Origin: Bacteroidales bacterium
GTDB lineage: Bacteria; Bacteroidota; Bacteroidia; Bacteroidales; Marinilabiliaceae
DNA: 43,280 nucleotides
Assembly (NCBI GenBank): GCA_012838865.1
Contig: DUOK01000029.1
Span: forward strand, 1 to 43,280
Direction: 5' to 3'
Part shown: positions 705 through 39,761 of the stretch, in pieces
Layout of the letters: each line of letters begins with the position of its first letter
Position numbering within the stretch: position 1 is the first letter of the stretch
Notes under the pieces: generated by a model
Seen by the model: only the letters and a program-made list of their open reading frames with translations
Told to the model about the DNA's origin: nothing
The model's database searches: none
Made by a program: the position numbers and the translations under genes

Positions 705-3071
705 ATGAAAATGAATTTAAGGGCAAGCGTGTTGTTGCTGCTGCTCGCGGTAGTTTTTGCCGTAAAGGGGCAAAACTTTGAACAAACAACACATGGGATT
801 AAAGCTGTTGTTGATGATGTAAAGGTCGAAATTGAGTATTATTCGCCCAAAGTGGTACGAATAATTAAATCGCCGGCCAATCGGCCTTTCACCAAAGAAA
901 GCTTGTCGGTTATTGCAAGTCCCCAAAACTTAAACCTGGTGGTGGACCAAGTAAAGCAAGTGCTTCGCGTTAAAAGCAAGCAGATGCAGGTGCAGCTCGA
1001 TTTAGAAACCGGCCAGCTGTCCTTTGCCGATGCAAAGGGACAGCCGCTTTTGCAAGAGCAGGCTGGTGGGGCCGGATTTGTGCCCTTTAAAGATGTGGAA
1101 GAAGAAACTTTCCGGGTAAAGCAAAGTTTTGTGCTGGATAAAGAGGAGGCCATTTATGGGCTGGGCCTGATGCAGGATGGAAAAATGTCGCAGCGTCATC
1201 AGACCAAATACCTGATTCAGGGTAATGTGGAGGATGTGGTTCCTTTTATTCAATCGCATAAGGGCTATGGCTTGTTTTGGGACAATTATTCGCCCACTAC
1301 TTTTGCCGATAGTGAAGCAGCTACTTCTTTTGAGTCGGAGGTCGGCGACGGCATCGACTATTATTTTATGTATGGAGGAAATGCCGATGGAGTGGTGGCT
1401 TGCATGCGTGAACTAACCGGACAGGTGCCAATGTTTCCTTTGTGGACCTACGGTTTCTGGCAAAGTCGGGAGCGCTATAAGAGTCAGCATGAGTTGTTGG
1501 GGGTGGTGAAAAAGTACAGGGATTTGCAAGTGCCCCTCGACGGCATTATTCAGGATTGGCAGTATTGGGGCAGTAATTACCTGTGGAATGCCATGGAGTT
1601 TCTGAATCCGGAGTTTCCCAACCCTCAGAAAATGGTGGACGAGGCACACAATCTCAATGCCCACATGATTATTTCCATCTGGTCTTCTTTTGGTCCCCAT
1701 ACCAAGCAGTATCGCGAGTTAGAGAAAATCGATGCTTTGATGGATTTCACCACCTGGCCCCAGTCGGGCATACAAAAATGGCCGCCCAATATGGATTATC
1801 CCTCCGGTGTAAGGGTGTACGATGCTTATAATCCGGAGGCACGCGACATTTATTGGAAACATTTAAAGGAAGGCCTGTGGTCGTTGGGGATTGATGGCTG
1901 GTGGATGGACTCTACAGAGCCTGATCACCTCGAAATTCAACCCGAAGACTACGACAATCCTACGTATATGGGGTCGTTCAGAAAAGTACGCAATGCCTAC
2001 CCCTTGATGACGGTGGGCGGAGTGTATAAAAATCAGCGGGAGCTGGATTCGGATAAGCGGGTGTTTATATTAACGCGTTCGGCTTTTGCCGGTCAGCAGC
2101 GCTATGGGGCCAATACGTGGACCGGCGATGTGGTGGCTTCGTGGGAGAACTATAAGAAGCAAATCTCTGCGGGATTGAACTTTTCGTTGACGGGCATTCC
2201 GCACTGGAATACCGATATTGGTGGTTTCTTTCTGTGGGAGTTCAGGGATCCCTTAAACAATCCCGATTATCGCGAACTTCAGGTTCGTTGGATGCAGTTT
2301 GGGGCTTTTACTCCTATGATGCGTTCGCACGGAGAAGGTTTTCCGCGTGAAATCTATCAGTTCGGCGAAAAGGGCGAGCCGATTTACGATGCCCTCGAAA
2401 AAGCCATTCGTCTCCGCTACAGTTTGCTGCCCTACATCTATTCTACTTCGTGGGAGGTGTCGGCCAGACAATCGACCATGACTCGCGCTCTGGTTATGGA
2501 TTTTGCTCACGACACCAAGGCTTTGGACATCAACGATCAATTTATGTTTGGAAAATCAATTCTGGTGTGTCCTGTTACCGAAGGAATGTATACCGTTGAT
2601 GGCAAAGCCGACTTCAGCATGGTGAAGTCACGCCAGTTGTATCTGCCGGAGGCCGCCGGATGGTATGATTTTTGGACCGGTGAGCGTATGGAGGGTGGCC
2701 AAACCATAAGCCGGGAGGTGCCGATCGACCTTATTCCTTTGTATGTAAAAGCCGGAGCCATTTTGCCACTGGGACCCGATGTGCAGTATGCGGCTGAAAA
2801 GCCTTGGGACCATTTGGAGCTGAAAGTTTTTGCCGGCGACGACGGCAGCTTTGTGCTGTATGAAGACGAAGGAGACAACTACAATTATGAGGAGGGGGCC
2901 TTTTCAGAGATTCCGATCAGCTGGAACGATGAGGCAAAAAAGCTAACCATTGGCGCCAGAAGAGGGACTTTCGAAGGCATGCTTAGCGAGCGAAAATTTA
3001 CGATTACCCTTTCTGACGGATCAAGCAAAACTGTGGATTACAAGGGCAAGAAAGTGGTTGTGAAGTTATAA
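705..3071 (+). CDS. GH31 alpha-glycosidase (alpha-xylosidase or alpha-glucosidase), exported
   Basis: 788 residues. An N-terminal hydrophobic segment (about 7-20, ending VKGQ) is a Sec signal peptide. A galactose-mutarotase-like beta domain follows to ~240, then the (beta/alpha)8 barrel (about 245-590) and C-terminal beta domains including a DUF5110-like part. The nucleophile is Asp402 in WWMDSTEPD and the acid/base is Asp475 in WTGDVVASW, both in standard GH31 context; FTPMMRSHGE is another family landmark. The WWMDSTEPD form resembles bacterial xyloglucan alpha-xylosidases, but this protein lacks the PA14 insert of some of those, so alpha-glucosidase remains possible. With the neighbouring GH43 fragment it suggests hemicellulose side-chain removal. 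The ATG at 705 begins a clean signal peptide. It converges with the propeller/AraC regulator gene, a likely controller. Confidence 0.9.
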   Translation: MKMNLRASVLLLLLAVVFAVKGQNFEQTTHGIKAVVDDVKVEIEYYSPKVVRIIKSPANRPFTKESLSVIASPQNLNLVVDQVKQVLRVKSKQMQVQLDLETGQLSFADAKGQPLLQEQAGGAGFVPFKDVEEETFRVKQSFVLDKEEAIYGLGLMQDGKMSQRHQTKYLIQGNVEDVVPFIQSHKGYGLFWDNYSPTTFADSEAATSFESEVGDGIDYYFMYGGNADGVVACMRELTGQVPMFPLWTYGFWQSRERYKSQHELLGVVKKYRDLQVPLDGIIQDWQYWGSNYLWNAMEFLNPEFPNPQKMVDEAHNLNAHMIISIWSSFGPHTKQYRELEKIDALMDFTTWPQSGIQKWPPNMDYPSGVRVYDAYNPEARDIYWKHLKEGLWSLGIDGWWMDSTEPDHLEIQPEDYDNPTYMGSFRKVRNAYPLMTVGGVYKNQRELDSDKRVFILTRSAFAGQQRYGANTWTGDVVASWENYKKQISAGLNFSLTGIPHWNTDIGGFFLWEFRDPLNNPDYRELQVRWMQFGAFTPMMRSHGEGFPREIYQFGEKGEPIYDALEKAIRLRYSLLPYIYSTSWEVSARQSTMTRALVMDFAHDTKALDINDQFMFGKSILVCPVTEGMYTVDGKADFSMVKSRQLYLPEAAGWYDFWTGERMEGGQTISREVPIDLIPLYVKAGAILPLGPDVQYAAEKPWDHLELKVFAGDDGSFVLYEDEGDNYNYEEGAFSEIPISWNDEAKKLTIGARRGTFEGMLSERKFTITLSDGSSKTVDYKGKKVVVKL

Positions 3072-3099
3072 ACAAGCCCTGTTTGAGCTCATAATGTTT

Positions 3100-3140
3100 A
3101 TGCCCGATGGGGAAACTGCGGTTTCTCTTATCGGGCATTT
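3100..3140 (+). terminator. Terminator of GH31, overlapping the end of the convergent regulator gene
   Basis: Nine-base arms ATGCCCGAT (3100-3108) and ATCGGGCAT (3130-3138) enclose a second short stem (3112-3116 with 3121-3125), followed by TTTCTTTTG. The right arm lies inside the last codons and stop of the minus-strand regulator gene. Confidence 0.6.
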
Positions 3141-5362
3141 TCTTTTGTTTTGGCGTATTCGGAGGGGCGACAGCCATACCTCTCCTGAAAGCACTTGCTC
3201 AGATAACTGGAGCTGCTGAAGCCCGTTTGTTCTGCCACTTCTGCAATACTCAGCTGGCCTTGGAGCAGAAGTTGGGCCGCTCGTTGCAGACGAATGTTGC
3301 GAATGAAAAGGCTGGGCGACTGGTCCAGAAGGGTGACCAGTTTTCGGTACAGGCCGGTGCGGTCCATGCACAAATCGCGACTCAATTGTTCTACCGAATA
3401 GCCGGGTAGGTGCAGGTTTTGTTCCACGAGCTGTACCGCCTGTGCAATAAAGGGCGATTCGGGTTGGTTTTGGTCGGGTTTGGTGTTGTCTTCTGTGGCG
3501 GTGGCCTCAATAAGACTGCGGATGCGCTCCAGCAAAAGGTCCTCTTTGTTTTTTCGTTCCAGCCGTTTTTTGGTCTGATAAACATACAGGCGCAGCGCGG
3601 CATAAGTGATTAAAAGGATAAGGAGCGTGTAAATCAGGTAGGCCCATGGAGTTTTCCACCAAGGGGCATGGATCACGAGCTGAATACTTGTGGTATTTTT
3701 TTCGTCCCAACGATCAGGGGCTACCGATGCGGCTACTTTAAAACGGTATTCATTGGGGGGCAGGTTGGTGTAGTGGGCCTGCAGTATGCCGTTGCTTTGT
3801 TGGTTGTGGGTAGCATAAACCCAGTTTTCGTCGATTCCTTCGAGTTGGTAGCGGTAGTGGGTTCGTTTGGGGTCAAAATAATTTAAAGCCGAAAATTCAA
3901 GAATGATGAAGTTCTGTTTGTGGTTCAGTTCGATGTGATTGACATAAGGGGGGTGGCTGGGCAATACCACTCGGCTGTGGTAGCTCTTGTTGGGTAGTAT
4001 TTTTTCGCCCTGCAGGTAAAAGGCGGTAAAAACGGGAGGGTGTGAGAGGGCAGGAGTCGGCAGGTCGGGATGGGACAAATAAACACTATAGCCGTCCTTG
4101 TCGGCAAAGTATAAGCTGCCGTCGGAGGCGCTGAAAGCGGCGTCCGAACCGTATTCCCTCTGCAATTCTTTGGGTACCTGGGTCGGACTTATCGGCAAGA
4201 GTTGGCTCTTGCCGCTTGTATCTACGTTCAGTTGGTAGTTTTTGCCCCGGTCGTTCAGGTAGATGTTGCCGCTACGGTCTTCCCCAAAGTAGGTGGTGGG
4301 TCCCGGGTGCTTCCATGATAAGGAGGTGTCGGTTTTATCCAAGCTCAGTAAATGGTAGCGGTGGGGATGATGGTACAACAAGCCCCGGCTGAAGGTTCCC
4401 AGCCACAGCGCTTCCTGATGGTCTTGGTAAATGGTGCTGATTTCTGTAGCCAGCACCTTGCCTCTTTGCGTCCTTAAAGCAGGCAGGTGTTGTTGTTCAT
4501 GGCTGTCTAAATCAATAATCCAAAATCCCTGAACGCAAGTGATGTAGGCCTTATTGTCCCCGGTAATCATCAAGGTGTTTAAAGTGTAGTCTTTCTCCAT
4601 AATCCGTGTCCATTTTCGTGTGGGGACATCAAAATGGAAAAAGCCGCCTTTGCTGCCATTGCGCAGTTGGTAAAAGCCCTCACCTTTAGGGATGATGAGG
4701 GAAGTGTTGTCGAAATTACTGCTTTCGGCAGCCGGGTAGGCAGCACGTGTGTAGAGACGCTGACCACCGTTTAGTTGGTAACAGCTTGCTTCACCTGTAT
4801 TAAAGAATAAATACAGGTGTTCATGGTCGCTGGCCAAATCCTGCAAATGCTGAGGAGAGGGGGGCAGATCCAGCTTAAACTGCAGGTCTTCTTGCAGTAA
4901 CTGACCTCCGCTGACCAGCCACAGGCGGTCCTGCTGATCGGTAAACAAATCGTCTACCGGCTCAGTCAGTCCCTGTTGCACAAAGTACTGTTCGAGGTCG
5001 TTGACAAATTGTTCCTTTTTGAGATCAAAGGCGCTCAATTGATGGTGGTCTTTCAGCCAAAGCAGGGAGTCGCCTTGTAAATACAGATGGGTGAACCCGC
5101 TGTACGCCTCGAGTGGGTAGCGATGTTCCGGTTTGCGTGCATAGTGGCTAAAGTGCACTCCATCAAACAAATTGATGTGCGTTTGGGTGGTGAAAACCAG
5201 TCGCCCGTCCGGCATCTCCATAATGTAGCGAATGTGGTTGTCGCTCAGTCCATTGGAGGTGTTTACAGGAGTAAAAAGGAAGTCGTTGGCCAGCATCTTC
5301 CCCAAGACCCCAAGAACCAGGCTTAGGAAAAGCAGCGTTTTCTTAAAGTTGCAGCAATACAC
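3128..5362 (-). CDS. Membrane-anchored propeller sensor with AraC-type DNA-binding domain, no kinase
   Basis: 744 residues. Order: hydrophobic signal/anchor (8-25); a beta-propeller of two-component-regulator type (about 28-430, starting FTPVNTSNGLSDNHI and with repeats such as DHQEALWLGTF); a Y_Y_Y domain (about 495-565, with YRYQLEGIDENW); one transmembrane helix (about 572-594); a short charged linker; and an AraC helix-turn-helix pair (about 638-740, with LSIAEVAEQTGFSSSSYLSKCF). In hybrid two-component systems a histidine kinase and receiver would sit between helix and AraC domain. Here only about 45 residues separate them, so the sensor is probably a one-component transmembrane transcription factor responding to a periplasmic ligand, likely a sugar. 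The start is GTG at 5362; no better in-frame start keeps the hydrophobic leader. It lies 25 bases after the PepSY gene on the same strand and converges with GH31. Confidence 0.85.
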   Translation of the reverse strand: MYCCNFKKTLLFLSLVLGVLGKMLANDFLFTPVNTSNGLSDNHIRYIMEMPDGRLVFTTQTHINLFDGVHFSHYARKPEHRYPLEAYSGFTHLYLQGDSLLWLKDHHQLSAFDLKKEQFVNDLEQYFVQQGLTEPVDDLFTDQQDRLWLVSGGQLLQEDLQFKLDLPPSPQHLQDLASDHEHLYLFFNTGEASCYQLNGGQRLYTRAAYPAAESSNFDNTSLIIPKGEGFYQLRNGSKGGFFHFDVPTRKWTRIMEKDYTLNTLMITGDNKAYITCVQGFWIIDLDSHEQQHLPALRTQRGKVLATEISTIYQDHQEALWLGTFSRGLLYHHPHRYHLLSLDKTDTSLSWKHPGPTTYFGEDRSGNIYLNDRGKNYQLNVDTSGKSQLLPISPTQVPKELQREYGSDAAFSASDGSLYFADKDGYSVYLSHPDLPTPALSHPPVFTAFYLQGEKILPNKSYHSRVVLPSHPPYVNHIELNHKQNFIILEFSALNYFDPKRTHYRYQLEGIDENWVYATHNQQSNGILQAHYTNLPPNEYRFKVAASVAPDRWDEKNTTSIQLVIHAPWWKTPWAYLIYTLLILLITYAALRLYVYQTKKRLERKNKEDLLLERIRSLIEATATEDNTKPDQNQPESPFIAQAVQLVEQNLHLPGYSVEQLSRDLCMDRTGLYRKLVTLLDQSPSLFIRNIRLQRAAQLLLQGQLSIAEVAEQTGFSSSSYLSKCFQERYGCRPSEYAKTKENAR

Positions 5363-33005: not shown

Positions 33006-33078
33006 ACGGGTGTAGCTCAGTTGGTAGAGCACTGGTCTCCAAAACCAGGTGTCGGGAGTTCGAGCCTCTCCTCCCGTG
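33006..33078 (+). tRNA. tRNA-Trp(CCA)
   Basis: 73 bases. Anticodon loop CTCCAAA between CTGGT and ACCAG, T-arm GGGAG/CTCTC, discriminator G as expected for Trp. The acceptor arms ACGGGTG and CTCCCGT pair except for a T-T opposition at positions 6:67. CCA is not encoded. Confidence 0.93.
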
Positions 33079-33100
33079 CTTTAGTGGAAATATTATTACT

Positions 33101-33191
33101 GGAGAGTTGGCCGAGTGGTCGAAGGCGCACGCCTGGAAAGTGTGTAAACCTCACAAGGGTTTCGAGGGTTCGAATCCCTCACTCTCCGCCA
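33101..33191 (+). tRNA. tRNA-Ser(GGA), CCA encoded
   Basis: 88 bases plus an encoded CCA. Acceptor GGAGAGT pairs with ACTCTCC; anticodon loop CTGGAAA between CACGC and GTGTG; long variable arm typical of Ser (AAACCTCACAAGGGTTT); discriminator G. It is 22 bases after tRNA-Trp. It is the only one of the four tRNA genes here with a genomic CCA. Confidence 0.95.
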
Positions 33192-33956: not shown

Positions 33957-33981
33957 TAGCTTTGTTGAAAAATCAAAGCTA
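33957..33981 (+). promoter_or_regulatory. Promoter and overlapping inverted repeat of the AAA+/FtsZ-like unit
   Basis: TAGCTTTG (33957-33964) is a perfect TAnnTTTG box. It is also the left arm of an inverted repeat whose right arm CAAAGCTA (33974-33981) ends on the A of the AAA+ start codon; spacer 9 bases. Transcription would begin near 33971, within the repeat, so the site is better read as a DNA operator than as an RNA hairpin. The leader is about 10 bases. Confidence 0.55.
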
Positions 33982-35633
33982 TGACACAGTCAATTAAATA
34001 CTTGTTGTTGGGTTGTTTGGAAGAGGTTTATAACAAGATAAGGAAGAGTCGACTGAAAGACCCGTCCTTTGGCGACATCGGTCAGGAGATGGATGTTCTA
34101 TGTGATTATTTTAAGGTGAACCGCTTTCAGGCTGCTTTTTTATCGATCTTGTTCGATAAGGGCCACGATGGAGAAACTGTCTCGTTCGATGAGGTTTTTA
34201 GGCACTTCGATTGCAGTGCTTTGCGCTTATTGAAGTTTCAGGACGATTTGGCGGATCTTGTTGAGCGAAATTTTATGGTGCAAAAGAAGAGTACCACAGG
34301 ATTTCGCAAAGCCAGAAGGACAGCGGTATATCAGTTAAACAACGATTTGTTGGAGGCGGTGCTCAGTAGTAAGCCCTTACCTGAGTTGCTTAAAACAGCT
34401 TTTGAGGATGTTCTGGATGTGTTGGGAACTATAGCCGATTTGGAGCACGACGATGATGTGGATGAAATTGATTTGTTGCTTTCTGCAGACGGCCTGGTGT
34501 CGGATAACCTTCACTTTCCACTTATGGAGTGTGTCCACAATTTTAAACTCAAGCTGGATGAGCAGTATATTCTGCTGGTTCTTTTCTGGGGGGCTGTTTC
34601 GGGCGAAACTTCACGAAATTTGAATCGTCTGGTTCGTGATGTGCATGGCAATTCATCGGCCAATATCAGGTGCAGAAGGGATTTTGTAGCCGGTAAAAAT
34701 AAATTGTCGAAGCTGGGCCTGGTAAAGACCAATGAAGCGGAGTTTTTTGATGATGTTGAAATAACCTTAGCAGCCAAAGGCTTGCAGTTGCTTAAGGAGC
34801 ATGGCGTGAAAACAATGGGCTCGGGGAAAAGGAGCGATGTGCTCACCGCCAAAGACATAAAGTTCAGGCAGTTGTTTTTTGATGGGGAAACCAGCAGTCA
34901 ATTGGACCTTTTGAAGCGTTCGCTGCAGCAGGAGCAACTGGAGGCCATCAGGGAGCGTTTACGCAGGCGTGGTTTGACCGATGGTATTGCGGCTCTTTTT
35001 TATGGAGCCCCGGGCACGGGGAAGACGGAAATGGCTAAGCAATTGGCACTGGCTACAGGGCGCGACATCATGAAGGTCGAAATAAGTAAGACCAAATCGA
35101 TGTGGTACGGTGAGAGTGAGAAAATCATCAAAAAGGTTTTTTCTGACTATGCCGACTTTGCTGCAGAATGTGAAAAAGTCCCCCTTCTCCTTTTCAATGA
35201 GGCCGACGCTGTGTTCAGTAAGCGTCAGGCCATAGGGCAATCCAATGTGGTGAAGACAGAAAATGCCATTCAGAACATAATTCTGGAAGAATTGGAAAAC
35301 TTCCGGGGCATATTGGTGGCCACAACCAATCTTCAGGACAACCTGGATCCGGCTTTTGAACGCCGTTTTCTGTTTAAGGTCCGGTTCAGCAAACCGGATG
35401 TCAACAACCGGGCCCTCATTTGGCAATCTAAACTGAAGGCGCTTTCAGAAGCCGAAGCTTTGCATTTGGCTGGGCAATTTGACTTTTCAGGAGGCGAAAT
35501 CGATAACATTGTCCGGAAATGGGAGATACACAGTGTTATAAATGGAGACGATGCGCTCTTTTCCACCGTTATTCACTTCTGTAACGAAGAACGGCTTGGC
35601 GCAAAGAAAAAAAGTATAGGATTTGAAAGGTAG
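33981..35633 (+). CDS. AAA+ ATPase with winged-helix-like N-terminal region
   Basis: 550 residues. The first ~310 are helical without a domain I can name; segments such as FDEVFRHFDCSALRLLKFQDDLADLV (quoted as FDEVFRHFDCSALRLL) look like winged-helix modules. The AAA core (about 325-530) has Walker A GAPGTGKT (342-349), Walker B LLLFNEADA with Asn406-Glu407 where Asp-Glu is usual, sensor 1 VATTNL and arginine-finger region FERRFLF; WYGESEK after Walker A is a pore-loop-like segment of the classical AAA (CDC48/spastin) clade. It is probably a hexameric remodeller or unfoldase acting on a protein client. The FtsZ-like gene starts 4 bases after its stop, so the client or partner may be that protein. 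The promoter and a possible operator overlap its start. Confidence 0.85.
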   Translation: MTQSIKYLLLGCLEEVYNKIRKSRLKDPSFGDIGQEMDVLCDYFKVNRFQAAFLSILFDKGHDGETVSFDEVFRHFDCSALRLLKFQDDLADLVERNFMVQKKSTTGFRKARRTAVYQLNNDLLEAVLSSKPLPELLKTAFEDVLDVLGTIADLEHDDDVDEIDLLLSADGLVSDNLHFPLMECVHNFKLKLDEQYILLVLFWGAVSGETSRNLNRLVRDVHGNSSANIRCRRDFVAGKNKLSKLGLVKTNEAEFFDDVEITLAAKGLQLLKEHGVKTMGSGKRSDVLTAKDIKFRQLFFDGETSSQLDLLKRSLQQEQLEAIRERLRRRGLTDGIAALFYGAPGTGKTEMAKQLALATGRDIMKVEISKTKSMWYGESEKIIKKVFSDYADFAAECEKVPLLLFNEADAVFSKRQAIGQSNVVKTENAIQNIILEELENFRGILVATTNLQDNLDPAFERRFLFKVRFSKPDVNNRALIWQSKLKALSEAEALHLAGQFDFSGGEIDNIVRKWEIHSVINGDDALFSTVIHFCNEERLGAKKKSIGFER

Positions 35634-35637
35634 TGGT

Positions 35638-36189
35638 ATGGAAAAGTGCGATGCGGGCCATATCTGTTTGATTGGAATTGGGAGGTTTGGGCTTAGGGTG
35701 CTTAAACGAGCCAGATCTGTAGGTGGGCAGACTAGGTTGGTGCATCTTGACAGGCAGCGTGGCCTTTTTAAACTGCCCGAAGAACCAAATATCAGGCAGC
35801 TGGAACTTGAAGAGGACGACCTTTTGCAATTGTCCTCCGTTTTAAGCGGTTTGTTTTCTGAAGGGGAGCAGTCTCGGTTTATTATTGTTGGTGGGTTGGG
35901 AGGCCGCACTACCTATTCTTTATTGGATCCCATTGCTTCCCTTTGTAGTTCCTATGGTGTGGAGCACTTTTGTGTTGGCGTTTTTCCTTTTTGTTTTGAG
36001 GGCAAAGCAAGAAATCATCAGGCCATATCACTGGTGCGCAGGATGGAAAAGTACACGAATTTTAAATACTTTGACTGCAATCTGGTCGTAAGGGAGCACA
36101 ATGGCAAGATCAATTTGGGAGTAGCTTTGGATAGCGTAGAGAATATTTTGTGGGCGTTTGTTCTTGGACTTTTAAAGCAGGGGTTTTAA
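35638..36189 (+). CDS. Short FtsZ/tubulin GTPase-domain-like protein
   Basis: 183 residues from the ATG at 35638 (AAAGG lies upstream; a TTG start at 35623 is possible). It reads as an FtsZ N-terminal domain: LIGIGRFG (11-18) for the T1 loop, a second strand TRLVHLD (32-38), IIVGGLGGRTTYS (82-94) for the T4 tubulin-signature loop, VGVFPFCFEGKARNHQA (113-129) matching the FtsZ segment VxVVTxPFxFEGxxRxxQA, then a strand ending FDCN (145-148) like IPND, and a final helix at 161-180. The T4 core GGGTG is GGRTT here, and the chain ends before the T7 catalytic loop and the C-terminal domain. Nucleotide binding is therefore doubtful and GTP hydrolysis by filaments unlikely. Translation is probably coupled to the AAA+ gene. 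Confidence 0.65.
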   Translation: MEKCDAGHICLIGIGRFGLRVLKRARSVGGQTRLVHLDRQRGLFKLPEEPNIRQLELEEDDLLQLSSVLSGLFSEGEQSRFIIVGGLGGRTTYSLLDPIASLCSSYGVEHFCVGVFPFCFEGKARNHQAISLVRRMEKYTNFKYFDCNLVVREHNGKINLGVALDSVENILWAFVLGLLKQGF

Positions 36190-36278
36190 TTCATTATTTT
36201 AGCCGGACTAAGTTAGCGCTCCTTTGGTATATTGTGAATAGTGACTATATTGATAGCTTAATTAAACAAAAAAAAATC

Positions 36279-37124
36279 ATGGATAAACAGGAGTTGAATA
36301 ACGCATATGCTCAGATTGAGAGGAGTCTCGAGCCAATTCGAACTTTCATTGAAAAAAAACTGGACGATGAAACCATAAAGAAAAACTATAAGGGTTTCAT
36401 CACTTTGCAGGGACCTCTAGTTCATAATCCTGAGATCTTGTTTTTGGGGATAAACCCTGGGCAAGGTGCTTATGTTGAACACCAGCTTCAAAATAAAGAA
36501 GGCTATCCAGTTCGCGTGTTTGATCCCAACAGTCCCTTGAGTCTTGATTGGTATAAGAATGGTAATGCCCGGGGACGAATGAATAATGGTCAGTGGGTTG
36601 GATATAAGTGGTATGAGCGTTCAAAGCAAATTAATAACCCCTTTGTTGCCAACATGATTGATTTGCTTTATGCCATTTCTGCGATTCGTAAACCAGATGA
36701 CCAGATTGCATTAAGGGATGGGGAGCAACCTGATTGGTATGAGGATTTTGGTAAGCGTTTGATGTTTACAAATTTGTATCCTATAGCAACAACTAAGGCT
36801 TCTGATTTGGATCCGATCTTTTCCTTAATGGTTAAGCATCCTGAAACAAAGAGTCTTTTTGGTGAAAAAGGGAGGCTAAGGAAGTGGGATGCTCAACTTT
36901 TCTTTATTTCGCGTGTAGAACAATTGATAGGCTTGGTTAAGCCGAAGGTTATTGTTTGTTTGGGGATTCAAAGCTATAATGATTTCACCTATACCAGCGA
37001 AAAGAAAAAAGAAAGGGTGTTCAAAACAGTTAAGGGAAATATTCCGGTTATTGGGCTTGATCGATCTGGGAATTGGTCCGGTTCAATTCCTTTGTTGGCA
37101 AAGGAAATAGCGACCTGTTTGTAG
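36279..37124 (+). CDS. Uracil-DNA-glycosylase-superfamily-like protein
   Basis: 281 residues from the ATG at 36279; the frame is open earlier but overlaps the previous gene. ILFLGINPGQGAYVEHQ (from residue 53) matches the first active-site motif of MUG/SMUG-type glycosylases (GINPG, catalytic Asn59). VIVCLGIQSYNDF matches the late core strand. The second motif, HPS or NPSGLS in active enzymes, would fall at GLDRSGNWSGS, so it is altered. It may bind or process modified bases, or be an inactive relative. It follows the FtsZ-like gene by 89 bases, where TATATTGT is a weak promoter candidate. Two 60-base samples inside it are about 38-40% G+C against about 50% in the receptor at 18 kb, which suggests recent acquisition. 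Confidence 0.55.
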   Translation: MDKQELNNAYAQIERSLEPIRTFIEKKLDDETIKKNYKGFITLQGPLVHNPEILFLGINPGQGAYVEHQLQNKEGYPVRVFDPNSPLSLDWYKNGNARGRMNNGQWVGYKWYERSKQINNPFVANMIDLLYAISAIRKPDDQIALRDGEQPDWYEDFGKRLMFTNLYPIATTKASDLDPIFSLMVKHPETKSLFGEKGRLRKWDAQLFFISRVEQLIGLVKPKVIVCLGIQSYNDFTYTSEKKKERVFKTVKGNIPVIGLDRSGNWSGSIPLLAKEIATCL

Positions 37125-37194
37125 CAATTTCCGGGCATTTTTTTTGGCACTTTTGTGCCCAACACAGTATTGTTTTGATGGAGGAGGACGAAGA

Positions 37195-37833
37195 TTAGGC
37201 TGTGTCTATCTTGTCGCAATGCTGCGTTACCAGTGTCATATCCAGCCATATTTCCTCAATATCCAGGATGTCCTGCCAGGCAAGGTAGGTGTGGTCGTAT
37301 AATTCATGCAGGAGCCAACCGTGTTTCTGTAGGCGTAAGGGGTGGTAGGCATTGTTGCTGAATTCATTGTGGTTTTCTTCCACAAGCCAAAGTGTAGTTT
37401 CTCTTTTAGTGGTTGACTCATGGTCTTTATCTGCGGCTTCCTGTTTGTTGGGGTCCAGGAGTAGACGACCGGAATAGACGGGGATTCCATCCATCTCAGC
37501 AAGGTGTCTGTATTTGTTGGGAGAATAAACTTCGAGAGTGAAATCTGTTTCGTAATCGTTGATAAAAGCATTCTTTTGAATCTGCACTTGCGCAAAGGCA
37601 CACAGCATATCGGTCTGTTGGATTACGGACCGGTATTTTTTGTCGAGCCAGGTGTTGATTCGCTCAATTTTTGCAACTGCTTCCGGGGAAAAAGTAAAAG
37701 TGCTGTTTAGTATTTGTTTTCGTTTCCGCAATACTTGGAGGTAACTTTTGTGCTCCTCTGTTGTGAGCTGGTTGTTGTTTGCTTTTATGAGAAAGGGGAT
37801 GAGGGGATCTGATTCGTTTTCGAAGTTGTCCAT
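37195..37833 (-). CDS. Hypothetical protein, probably controlled by the WYL regulator
   Basis: 212 residues; I do not recognise the family. No signal peptide or membrane segment. The N-terminal ~75 residues are helical and charged (LTTEEHKSYLQVLRKRKQIL), the middle reads as beta strands (DFTLEVYSP, IPVYSGRLLLD, ETTLWLVEEN), and the C-terminus holds HGWLLHELYDHTYLAWQDIL, with several His and acidic residues. It converges with the glycosylase-like gene. A perfect promoter box and the 13-base motif shared with the WYL gene lie upstream, so the two are likely coregulated. It could be an immunity-type or stress protein, but nothing in the sequence proves this. Confidence 0.6.
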   Translation of the reverse strand: MDNFENESDPLIPFLIKANNNQLTTEEHKSYLQVLRKRKQILNSTFTFSPEAVAKIERINTWLDKKYRSVIQQTDMLCAFAQVQIQKNAFINDYETDFTLEVYSPNKYRHLAEMDGIPVYSGRLLLDPNKQEAADKDHESTTKRETTLWLVEENHNEFSNNAYHPLRLQKHGWLLHELYDHTYLAWQDILDIEEIWLDMTLVTQHCDKIDTA

Positions 37834-37846
37834 ATCGCTTTTTTTT

Positions 37847-37879
37847 CAAATGTAAACCAAGGCTACGACAAAGGGTGTC
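37847..37879 (-). promoter_or_regulatory. Promoter and WYL-type motif upstream of the hypothetical gene
   Basis: Minus-strand TACATTTG (37847-37854), a perfect -7 box 13 bases from the start codon. Twelve bases upstream is GACAAAGGGTGTC (37867-37879, plus-strand reading), with inverted ends ACGACA/TGTCGT. The same motif at the same distance precedes the WYL gene. Confidence 0.6.
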
Positions 37880-37970
37880 GTGCCTTTGGGCGGATCAATT
37901 CTGGATACCTAAAAACCAGAGAGCGGGTATGTATTGCAGAAAGGATGGCCCTCATTTGAATGGGGTAGCG

Positions 37971-38765
37971 CTACTCCTCCCTCTCGTACTCTTCCAGCAG
38001 GGCCTTGATTTTTCGGGAGGCGGTGATGCCGTTGTCGCTGAGGTTGATTTTCAGGTGAATGTTGCAGTAAATGACAAATTTTTCCAATTCCTCGCCTTCA
38101 TATCCGGAAACCAGGGCGATGATTTCGGGGTTGGCTACTGCGTCGCGGTGGTCCCATAGTGTGGATTGGGCACGGACCTCAGGCAGATTGATTTTGGCTC
38201 TCTCGAGTCGGTTGGTCCGGGAAAAGATGAAGCCTGCGGGACTTCTTATGGCGCCCAGCAGGCCTACATTGCCGATGTCGGGTCGCTCGTTGGGAGGCAG
38301 TTTAGAGATTCTACTTCCGAAGTGCGCCGGCAGGTGCAGATCGAGGGCGTTGGGGTCGTCCGGTATTTTAGGAAAAATGAGGGGGTCGAGCATGCCGGTG
38401 TAGCCTTTAACGGTGACTTCCTTAATGGCATAGGAGTGTTGTTTGAGCTTAATTTGTATGGTGCCCGTACTGTCTTTTTCCATTTGACTGAGTACGATGG
38501 TGCGGGGTTCAAAACCCAGTGCAGCCACCCGAATGGAGTCCTTATAGGGCAACATAAGCGCGAAGTAGCCGTGGTCGTCGGCGCCAAAAGCGCTGACTTG
38601 CATGTAGCTGGCTACAGTGGCGTAGGGGATGAGGGCGTTGTCGCTTTGGGAGCGGATGCTGCCGACCCACACTACTAAAGAGTCGGATTGGGCAAGACTT
38701 GGAGCCGTACATAGTGCCAGGAGACTGAAAAGCAGTAGGACTGACTTGAAATTTTTTGGGGTCAT
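37971..38765 (-). CDS. Exported carboxypeptidase-regulatory-like domain protein
   Basis: 264 residues from the ATG at 38765, giving signal peptide NFKSVLLLFSLLALCTAPSLAQ (residues 4-25; only NFKSVLLLFSLLALC need be noted). A CarboxypepD_reg-like beta sandwich follows (about 28-110: VVWVGSIRSQSDNALIPYAT, HGYFALMLPYKDSIRVAALG). The C-terminal half is without a recognised domain and ends with helices (KIKALLEEYEREE). Similar Bacteroidota proteins are periplasmic or surface proteins of unknown role. It lies downstream of the WYL gene by 84 bases on the same strand and may be in its transcript. Confidence 0.7.
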   Translation of the reverse strand: MTPKNFKSVLLLFSLLALCTAPSLAQSDSLVVWVGSIRSQSDNALIPYATVASYMQVSAFGADDHGYFALMLPYKDSIRVAALGFEPRTIVLSQMEKDSTGTIQIKLKQHSYAIKEVTVKGYTGMLDPLIFPKIPDDPNALDLHLPAHFGSRISKLPPNERPDIGNVGLLGAIRSPAGFIFSRTNRLERAKINLPEVRAQSTLWDHRDAVANPEIIALVSGYEGEELEKFVIYCNIHLKINLSDNGITASRKIKALLEEYEREE

Positions 38766-38849
38766 CGTAATTTGGGGCTTGGCAAATGAGTACAATCGTG
38801 TGCCGGCTAAATAACGATGGGACGTATTGCCTTTGCAATAACTGTGCCG

Positions 38850-39761
38850 CTAGGGTGTTTTTCCTAAATATAAATCCAGGGCTTGCTGGTGGTAGGTCTT
38901 TACTTCGCGGATGAGGCTTTGGGGTTGCAATACCCTTACGCGTGGTCCGTGGGAAACTAGTTCCTGAACAAAATCTTCGGTGATGTAGAGATGGAGTCGA
39001 AAAACCACTTCGTTTTCGGTTTCTTCTATTTTTGTTTGCGAAGGGTGCAGGGGCAGGGTGAGGATGTATTGCGACTGGGGTTTGCGGAAGGCCAGGAGTA
39101 CTTCACGGGGCTTCAGCTGATCGCCCACAATAATGCCGAAGCTGTGCTTAAACATTTGTTTGACATTAAAGTCGGCCGGGCGTTTGTATTTTTCTGTGCC
39201 AATCTCGAGTTGGGAAAGGCGGTCGAGCGCAAAATTGCGGAGCTCTTTTTTTTCCTGATCGATGCCAATTACATACCAGCGGTTGATCGATTCTTTGAGG
39301 GCCAATGGCGCCACAAAGCGGGTTCGTTTTTCGTCGGCCCAAAACTTTTGGTAGGTGAAACGCACCTTTAGGGTGTTTTGAATGGCGTGGAGCAGGCCGT
39401 TCATGTTTTCGGTACCGCGCGGGCGCCGCTTTTCATAGTCGATGAACTGGGGCAGGCGATTGGTCATTTTCAGGGCGCTGAAGGTGTCGAAGGCTTCCAG
39501 TAATCGGGTATTGGCTTCGGTATTGTCTTCTTCCTGTATGTACCATTCGTTGCGCGAAAAATCGAAGGCGATGCTGATGCCGTAGAGTGATTCGATGTTT
39601 TCGATGTCGCGCTGAAAGGTGCGCTTGGATATGTTGAAGTCGTAACCCTGAATGTCTGATTCCAGATGAAGCCGGTCCTGAATTTCTGAAAAACTGGCGG
39701 GACTCTGGCGCAGACGGTTGATGATGATGTTGTAACGGTTGAGTGTTTCGCGGATGGCCAT
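38850..39761 (-). CDS. WYL-domain transcriptional regulator
   Basis: 303 residues. An N-terminal winged helix (about 1-62: LNRYNIIINRLRQSPASF, ISKRTFQRDIENIESLYG, the recognition helix with RTFQRDI), a WYL domain (about 125-200, with RFVAPLALKESINRWYVIGID; the name motif is WYV here), and a WCX C-terminal part (about 215-300). WYL regulators sense ligands such as nucleotides or single-stranded DNA and often control defence or DNA-damage genes. It probably binds the 13-base motif at its own promoter and at that of the hypothetical gene 2 kb away. It diverges from the LysR gene. Confidence 0.88.
   Translation of the reverse strand: MAIRETLNRYNIIINRLRQSPASFSEIQDRLHLESDIQGYDFNISKRTFQRDIENIESLYGISIAFDFSRNEWYIQEEDNTEANTRLLEAFDTFSALKMTNRLPQFIDYEKRRPRGTENMNGLLHAIQNTLKVRFTYQKFWADEKRTRFVAPLALKESINRWYVIGIDQEKKELRNFALDRLSQLEIGTEKYKRPADFNVKQMFKHSFGIIVGDQLKPREVLLAFRKPQSQYILTLPLHPSQTKIEETENEVVFRLHLYITEDFVQELVSHGPRVRVLQPQSLIREVKTYHQQALDLYLGKTP

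Follow-up and report, generated by a model that had tools for sequence, protein, structure and literature searches.

The 43,280-nucleotide stretch of Bacteroidales DNA analyzed here (the window; contig DUOK01000029.1 of assembly GCA_012838865.1, Marinilabiliaceae) contains, at 35638-36189 of the forward strand, a gene for a protein of 183 amino acids (P0001) that sequence searches, an AlphaFold2 (AF2) model and structure comparison with VIA predict to be a single-domain member of the FtsZ superfamily. At the level of sequence and modeled fold, this protein is shown to be part of a family, rare and from Bacteroidota, whose members are free-standing FtsZ-fold domains. As an earlier note on this DNA, made from the sequence alone, had observed, its ATG lies four bases past the stop codon (ending at 35633) of a gene for an AAA+ ATPase, a spacing that suggests shared transcription of the two genes. 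We tentatively favor, with rather less than even confidence, the interpretation that the small protein is a monomeric nucleotide switch, sensor or adaptor with an FtsZ fold, encoded in a dispensable stress or defense locus linked to a WYL-domain regulator.

Homology, fold and motifs of the small FtsZ-like protein

The relationship with FtsZ is detectable in both directions. The Pfam Tubulin/FtsZ domain (PF00091) matches the 183-residue protein below its curated cut-off (E = 2.4e-4), the FtsZ of the same genome is matched at E = 1.3e-7 (phmmer), and a sequence search of the PDB places FtsZ on top (E = 0.0013), with mostly FtsZ beneath and a few unrelated weaker matches. A hidden Markov model (HMM) built from FtsZ alone ranks the protein first among the 405 open reading frames (ORFs) of the window (E = 1.5e-8; runner-up, E = 4.7) and lists none of 200 shuffled versions of it at E<=10. 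Conversely, profile A1, built from four small relatives, was run on 71 genomes from the bacterial family and retrieves 53 frames of FtsZ length in 52 of them, with E values no higher than 6e-14 and alignments that cover almost the whole domain; 66 of the 71 have some match at E<=0.01; when a profile of eight small proteins is compared with one of eleven FtsZ proteins, hhalign yields 99.5% (E = 4.4e-22). The AF2 model (pLDDT 87.9, pTM 0.85) matches FtsZ in Foldseek (E = 4e-7) and, in VIA, aligns with the FtsZ N-terminal domain over 178 of 183 residues (Z 20.6, rmsd 2.7), spanning residues 31-227 of M. jannaschii FtsZ; the best 50 fold matches among those listed are all FtsZ. Because 11 of the 21 rows of the alignment used by AF2 are FtsZ, the FtsZ fold is favored in this prediction; the sequence tests are independent of that alignment. 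Thus, the FtsZ-like identity proposed in the earlier note was borne out by both profile and structure comparison, and no other Rossmann-like family emerged, the candidates being limited to 2-Hacid_dh_C (E = 0.24) and RimK-like (E = 0.0088) matches. As judged from its sequence and predicted structure, the protein is a true member of the FtsZ/tubulin superfamily that corresponds to the GTPase domain.

The motif residues discussed below have, apart from the T7 contact, the roles familiar from the FtsZ literature. In an alignment with 11 FtsZ proteins, to which the small protein is 18-22% identical, a T1-like GIGRFG (residues 13-18; 35674-35691, forward strand, as for the other motifs), a T4-like GGLGGRT (residues 85-91; 35890-35910) and PFCFEGKAR, the counterpart of the FtsZ motif PFxFEGxxR (residues 117-125; 35986-36012), follow each other in the FtsZ order, just as previously described. 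The PFxFEGxxR motif is intact and the T6 Asn is retained. T1 has changed from GVGGGGSNA in FtsZ to GIGRFGLRV and T4 from AGMGGGTGTG to GGLGGRTTYS, so that the signature loop GGGTG(S/T)G is absent from the 183-residue protein; T3 is deleted. The C-terminal helix (36115-36180; residues 160-181 in the AF2 model) is equivalent to FtsZ H7, with the Phe/Asp pair of that helix replaced by Leu/Glu, and the match stops there (M. jannaschii FtsZ residue 227). The T7 catalytic loop and the C-terminal domain are missing from the small proteins, and the window protein consists of the FtsZ N-terminal domain and helix H7, and nothing more (alignment, AF2 and VIA). In the accessible portions of two papers, the T7 loop of one FtsZ subunit is described as touching the nucleotide pocket of the next subunit (PMC5624674; PMC13423816).

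Lacking the T7 loop, the C-terminal domain and T3, the small protein should neither polymerize nor hydrolyze GTP in the way FtsZ does. It probably still binds a nucleotide, because PFxFEGxxR and part of T1 and T4 are retained, and the nucleotide state would then set its shape, as in a monomeric switch or adaptor. The same architecture, that is, the FtsZ half that bears the nucleotide face, could alternatively make the protein a poison of the division FtsZ: the nucleotide face would meet the T7 face of division FtsZ, and the domain, which itself lacks a T7 face, would cap the filament, to be removed by the AAA+ protein. The two FtsZ domains are reported to fold independently, with T7 meeting the pocket of the next subunit (PMC5624674, accessible part), in keeping with such capping. 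We nevertheless regard it as improbable, given the degenerate T1 and T4, the low identity to FtsZ and the deletion of T3, a loop that helps to form the nucleotide face of FtsZ.

Distribution of the family and its genomic contexts

The closest relative of the window protein, P0003 (G011:C14, locus L118), also consists of 183 amino acids, is 30% identical to it and has the identical T3 deletion; the Phe/Asp pair of H7 is retained in P0003. In the phylogenetic tree, the two proteins pair at 100/98, and eight small proteins are located on one side of a branch with support of 88/83 that is not starred; P0001 forms a long branch, and the tree carries a warning of long branches meeting. Considering the equal length, the 30% identity, the shared T3 gap and the 100/98 branch, the family seems, on the sequence evidence, to be old and stable rather than a decayed copy of FtsZ. 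That the gene is a pseudogene of the host FtsZ, or a piece broken off it, was rejected on similar grounds, namely the 18-22% identity to FtsZ and the existence of a same-sized relative with the same gap. A phage or plasmid gene was likewise rejected, since searches of phages, plasmids and viral contigs gave no hit; the pattern scans among these searches may overlook distant relatives.

The family is rare in three overlapping samples: five loci in 4 of the 71 family genomes (two short partial matches omitted), 3 of 395 genomes of the class at E<=1e-24, one of them that of the window, and 1 of 395 genomes of the phylum at E<=1e-26, which is the window's own. An alignment that included L151 and L153 (A2) was too FtsZ-like to split the small proteins from FtsZ, and alignments A3 and A4 were therefore used. 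The short ORFs L154, L155, L157 and L158 were omitted as FtsZ frames truncated where contigs end; L119 (a 75-residue fragment) and L120 lie outside the family analysis. Two side observations concern other FtsZ paralogs. A genome of the same order (L025, G089:C11) carries three tandem FtsZ-like ORFs at 3-1184, 1198-2571 and 2706-3305, the outer two of which reach the ends of the locus. In L101 (G049:C15), a 416-residue frame next to a standard FtsZ encodes a second FtsZ paralog, with INISFSDL in place of the FtsZ sequence INVDFADV, that is 55% identical to the FtsZ of the window genome over the aligned part.

Unexpectedly, a sister branch of the family carries what resembles a twin-arginine translocation (Tat) leader: among the eight proteins aligned in A4, five have an N-terminal twin-Arg, a Lys and a hydrophobic stretch ahead of the FtsZ domain (L117:4947-5624, L032:8935-9588, L033:9633-10274, L161:7236-7895 and L162:6156-6848); these leaders were judged by eye, and an internal ATG was picked for L032 and L033. 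By the same inspection of A4, P0001, P0003 and L152 have no such leader. TatC is present in all seven genomes tested. A Tat-like leader would put an FtsZ fold outside the cytoplasm, and literature searches, for which subscription papers were mostly out of reach, gave us no report of an export leader on an FtsZ domain. Such relatives, if exported, could not meet the cytoplasmic FtsZ, another argument against the capping of division filaments.

One locus with a leader-bearing protein, L032 from Marinilabilia salmonicolor, offers a point in favor of capping. At L032:12329-13267 (reverse strand), about 2.7 kb from the small FtsZ gene and on the same strand as the latter and a WYL gene, is a gene for a 312-residue FtsZ relative that aligns with FtsZ across both domains, matches FtsZ_C (E = 1.3e-6) and has lost the T4 loop. 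Here, the small gene has kept the nucleotide half and the 312-residue gene the C-terminal half, so that an FtsZ-like partner may exist at this locus. This second relative is missing from the window and from L033, the other M. salmonicolor locus, a distribution that speaks against capping. The 312-residue protein fits an FtsZ-related role of L032 and leaves the odds of the readings unchanged. The same strand of L032 also carries a 509-residue ORF with no Pfam match.

The genomic contexts of the small FtsZ genes are often defense-like: 8 of the 10 loci examined, among them the window, L032 and L033, have WYL, restriction, AbiE or Fic/AAA_13 genes nearby. In L117, the small FtsZ gene begins 24 bp after a WYL gene, with an AbiE pair about 2 kb away; the P0003 gene has a one-base overlap with a PDDEXK_4/PDC-S26 gene and a type I restriction-modification system upstream; in L153, the small FtsZ gene adjoins a GmrSD pair, with a WYL gene about 1.7 kb further; and in L161, it lies between PDC-S06 (AAA_13) upstream and Fic (PDC-S04) downstream. 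PADLOC matched 8 of 10 neighbors from four loci, hand-picked by eye and not blind, compared with 0 of 10 control genes from the window.

These surroundings are compatible with the idea that the small protein is a decoy or sensor for phage inhibitors of FtsZ, signaling to the AAA+ protein. There is precedent for FtsZ as a co-trigger of immunity, CapRel sensing the phage protein Gp0.4 bound to FtsZ (PMC13423816, in part), and CbtA-type inhibitors are reported to bind the H6/H7 loop (PMC5624674, in part), a region present in the 183-residue protein. A decoy is unlikely for inhibitors of the SulA, MciZ and Gp0.4 type, because these bind the T7/C-domain face (accessible parts of PMC13423816 and PMC5624674), which the small protein lacks, and overall we consider this explanation very unlikely.

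The AAA+ ATPase and a variable locus

The AAA+ gene (33981-35633, forward strand) encodes 550 amino acids; position 33957, where it had been thought to start, is an in-frame stop codon, and the first ATG is at 33981. Its assignment as a classical AAA ATPase holds: Walker A, Walker B, the arginine region and the AAA fold are all present, the Pfam AAA domain matches at 3.8e-22, and residues 279-550 of the AF2 model align with the AAA module of proteasomal Rpt (VIA Z 21.8). Walker A (GAPGTGKT, 35004-35027) is at residues 342-349, where it had been placed earlier, and G342 and G345-T349 are invariant in an alignment of 18 sequences. In Walker B (LLLFNE, residues 402-407; 35184-35201), Asn replaces the first acidic residue, usually Asp, and the Glu is retained; both N406 and E407 are invariant in the 18 sequences. 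The whole-protein model, for which the VIA list spans residues 279-549, has pLDDT 80.1 and pTM 0.49; the N-terminal ~275 residues are modeled as helical with two hairpin units that, on our reading, look winged-helix-like.

The relatives of the AAA+ gene comprise 56 loci. Neighbors were counted in 47 of these and the window locus (48 in all, with nine weaker loci, L079-L087, omitted), and small-family HMMs were run on the ORFs of 65 loci, consisting of all 56, eight more from the bacterial family and the window's own. Only 33 of the 47 counted loci extend 2 kb or more from the AAA gene in each direction, so that genes past the locus ends were missed; some loci are near-duplicates (for example, two from Dysgonomonas and two from M. 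salmonicolor), and neighbor clusters were built by BLAST. The small FtsZ gene adjoins the AAA gene in only one of the 48 loci, the window. In the two M. salmonicolor loci (L032 and L033), a small FtsZ gene is located 1.3 and 2.0 kb from the AAA gene, on the opposite strand and directly downstream of a WYL gene. The 65-locus scan, in which several loci are short, found no further small FtsZ; its other two matches are an ordinary FtsZ located where a contig ends (L079) and the 312-residue protein of L032. Among the 71 family genomes, the AAA+ gene occurs in 10, in one of which it is truncated, and the small FtsZ in 4; three have both, a weak co-occurrence because two of the three genomes share one genus. 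The two genes had been proposed to form a module, with lack of co-occurrence among homologs named as evidence that would refute it; such lack is largely what was observed, the module is unsupported, and the small FtsZ is no fixed partner of the AAA+ protein.

These counts bear directly on another explanation, chance adjacency, under which the small FtsZ gene is a passenger in a variable locus, functionally unconnected with this AAA+ protein, and the latter works with WYL-linked nuclease and phosphoesterase genes. The solitary pairing among the 48 loci, the unequal spread of the two genes over the family genomes and the location of P0003 by a PD-(D/E)XK gene and type I restriction-modification all agree with it, as does the loss of the segment from a sister species described below. 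The four-base spacing, which suggests shared transcription, and the fact that in both Marinilabilia loci no more than 2 kb separates a small FtsZ gene from an AAA gene whose product is 70-73% identical to that of the window argue the other way. We consider chance adjacency somewhat unlikely, yet nearly as likely as the switch or adaptor interpretation.

The most common neighbor of the AAA gene is a WYL regulator, in 21 of 48 loci (Pfam-confirmed for three cluster members), followed by GmrSD-type genes (10 and 9), a calcineurin-like phosphoesterase (10), an RNase_T exonuclease (7) and RtcB (3), these non-WYL clusters having been named by Pfam from one member each. The WYL gene of the window itself falls outside the locus (L001) used in this count. 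As a separate observation, a set of WYL, AAA+, GmrSD pair, phosphoesterase, exonuclease and PLD-like genes recurs in Bacteroidales (L036-L072 and L167-L171). The WYL/GmrSD/AAA neighborhood matched no named system, and literature searches found no such description; the accessible text of a paper on WYL (PMC4012209) has no mention of FtsZ, GmrSD or Bacteroid.

In the window, the small FtsZ gene is not beside division genes. It is followed by a gene for a weakly uracil-DNA-glycosylase-like protein of 281 residues (36279-37124, forward strand; Pfam UDG E = 0.011, under the cut-off) and then, on the reverse strand, by an uncharacterized gene (37195-37833; neighbor cluster 6) with relatives also at the Marinilabilia AAA loci, a gene for a CarboxypepD_reg-like protein (37971-38795; Pfam 6.2e-7, under the curated cut-off) and the WYL-domain transcription regulator (38850-39761; Pfam WYL 1.3e-15 and WCX), which is 74-75% identical to the WYL proteins beside the Marinilabilia small FtsZ. 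The glycosylase-like gene was considered as a shared neighbor and rejected, with no BLASTP match between the window protein and two candidates. On its other side, the AAA+ gene is flanked by a weakly DUF3575-like gene. The A/T-richness previously ascribed to the adjacent gene is mild, the block of the downstream gene having a G+C content of 0.39 compared with 0.42-0.53 in the other 14 blocks.

A sister species, Geofilum rhodophaeum HF401 (L034), is ~97% identical to the window in both flanks and lacks 34,804-37,976 as well as a stretch inside the AAA gene ahead of 34,804; the WYL gene stays. The genome that corresponds to it (G004) contains no small FtsZ elsewhere and no other full AAA gene. 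Because so close a relative does without it, the small-FtsZ segment is dispensable. In a comparison with L172, from the sister species, the ~3.2 kb at 34804-37976 are swapped for ~11.5 kb of unrelated genes, which by eye include an AraC-like regulator, a reductase and esterases. The tRNA-Trp (33006-33079) and tRNA-Ser (33101-33191) genes, about 0.8 kb upstream of the AAA+ gene, had been taken to mark a place for defense or mobile genes; the tRNA pair and an accessory, defense-like setting are indeed there, but insertion at this site is unsupported, as both tRNAs and the beginning of the AAA gene persist in the sister species.

Proposed role and comparison with known systems

The gene contexts show the AAA+ and small FtsZ genes as separately exchangeable parts of an accessory, replaceable stress or defense locus linked to WYL. 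In this particular genome, the AAA+ protein might be an unfoldase for which the small FtsZ acts either as a recognized adaptor or as a restraint, the weakest step in the proposed mechanism. Several points count against the switch or adaptor interpretation. The AAA+/small-FtsZ adjacency is limited to the window; the P0003 gene overlaps a PD-(D/E)XK gene instead of an AAA gene; L151, whose membership in the family is unsure, has a WYL gene alone (divergent), and L152 and L162 are without obvious defense neighbors. The PADLOC contrast, with neighbors chosen by eye from four loci, is no measure of enrichment. Nucleotide binding is a guess from the motifs, and the role as a whole is proposed from sequence, predicted fold and gene context.

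In a broader and more speculative view, which we consider doubtful, the small proteins would constitute a novel lineage within the FtsZ/tubulin superfamily, comprising bare, non-polymerizing nucleotide sensors of defense or stress loci, in cytoplasmic forms (here co-expressed with an AAA+ unfoldase) and Tat-exported forms acting outside the cytoplasm, and in one strain or more they would be joined by an FtsZ relative that retains the opposite half. FtsZ and tubulin are familiar as polymer-forming proteins, and an old natural family reduced to the nucleotide domain would reveal what the fold does without filaments. It would also add FtsZ mimics to the parts of bacterial defense loci, just as FtsZ itself is a co-trigger of phage immunity.

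Literature searches found no description of the small FtsZ family or of its pairing with an AAA+ protein, and the closest known systems differ in defined ways. With the FtsZ of cell division (PF00091), the 183-residue protein shares the fold over 178 residues, the order of motifs, PFxFEGxxR and H7; it differs in the absence of T3, T7, the C-terminal domain and the tail, in the degenerate T1 and T4, and in its 18-22% identity. PhuZ and other phage tubulins are remote fold matches (best E = 1e-4), longer (315-347 residues in the four best) and less similar than FtsZ (E = 4e-7). The anti-phage system IetAS includes an adjacent protease gene, IetS. The AAA module of the window protein resembles IetA (2e-23 in PADLOC, 5.4e-21 in NCBIfam), with the match confined to this module and short of the curated NCBIfam cut-off (75 versus 510 bits), and Pfam identified no protease gene on either side of the AAA+ gene. 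FtsZl1 and FtsZl2, as described in the accessible text of PMC2875224, are likewise divergent FtsZ-superfamily proteins outside division, and the region from T6 to H7 is unrecognizable in FtsZl1. FtsZl1 carries a coiled coil and helical parts at its C-terminus and has vWA- and OmpA-type neighbors, and FtsZl2 has its own C-terminal region of ~300 residues, whereas the small proteins are bare GTPase domains; the FtsZ domain fills the 183-residue protein, leaving no counterpart of the FtsZl1 coiled coil and helical domain. Finally, in the CapRel-FtsZ-Gp0.4 system (PMC13423816, accessible part), FtsZ serves phage immunity, but that system has no dedicated FtsZ-like gene and makes use of the division FtsZ of the host and its T7 face.

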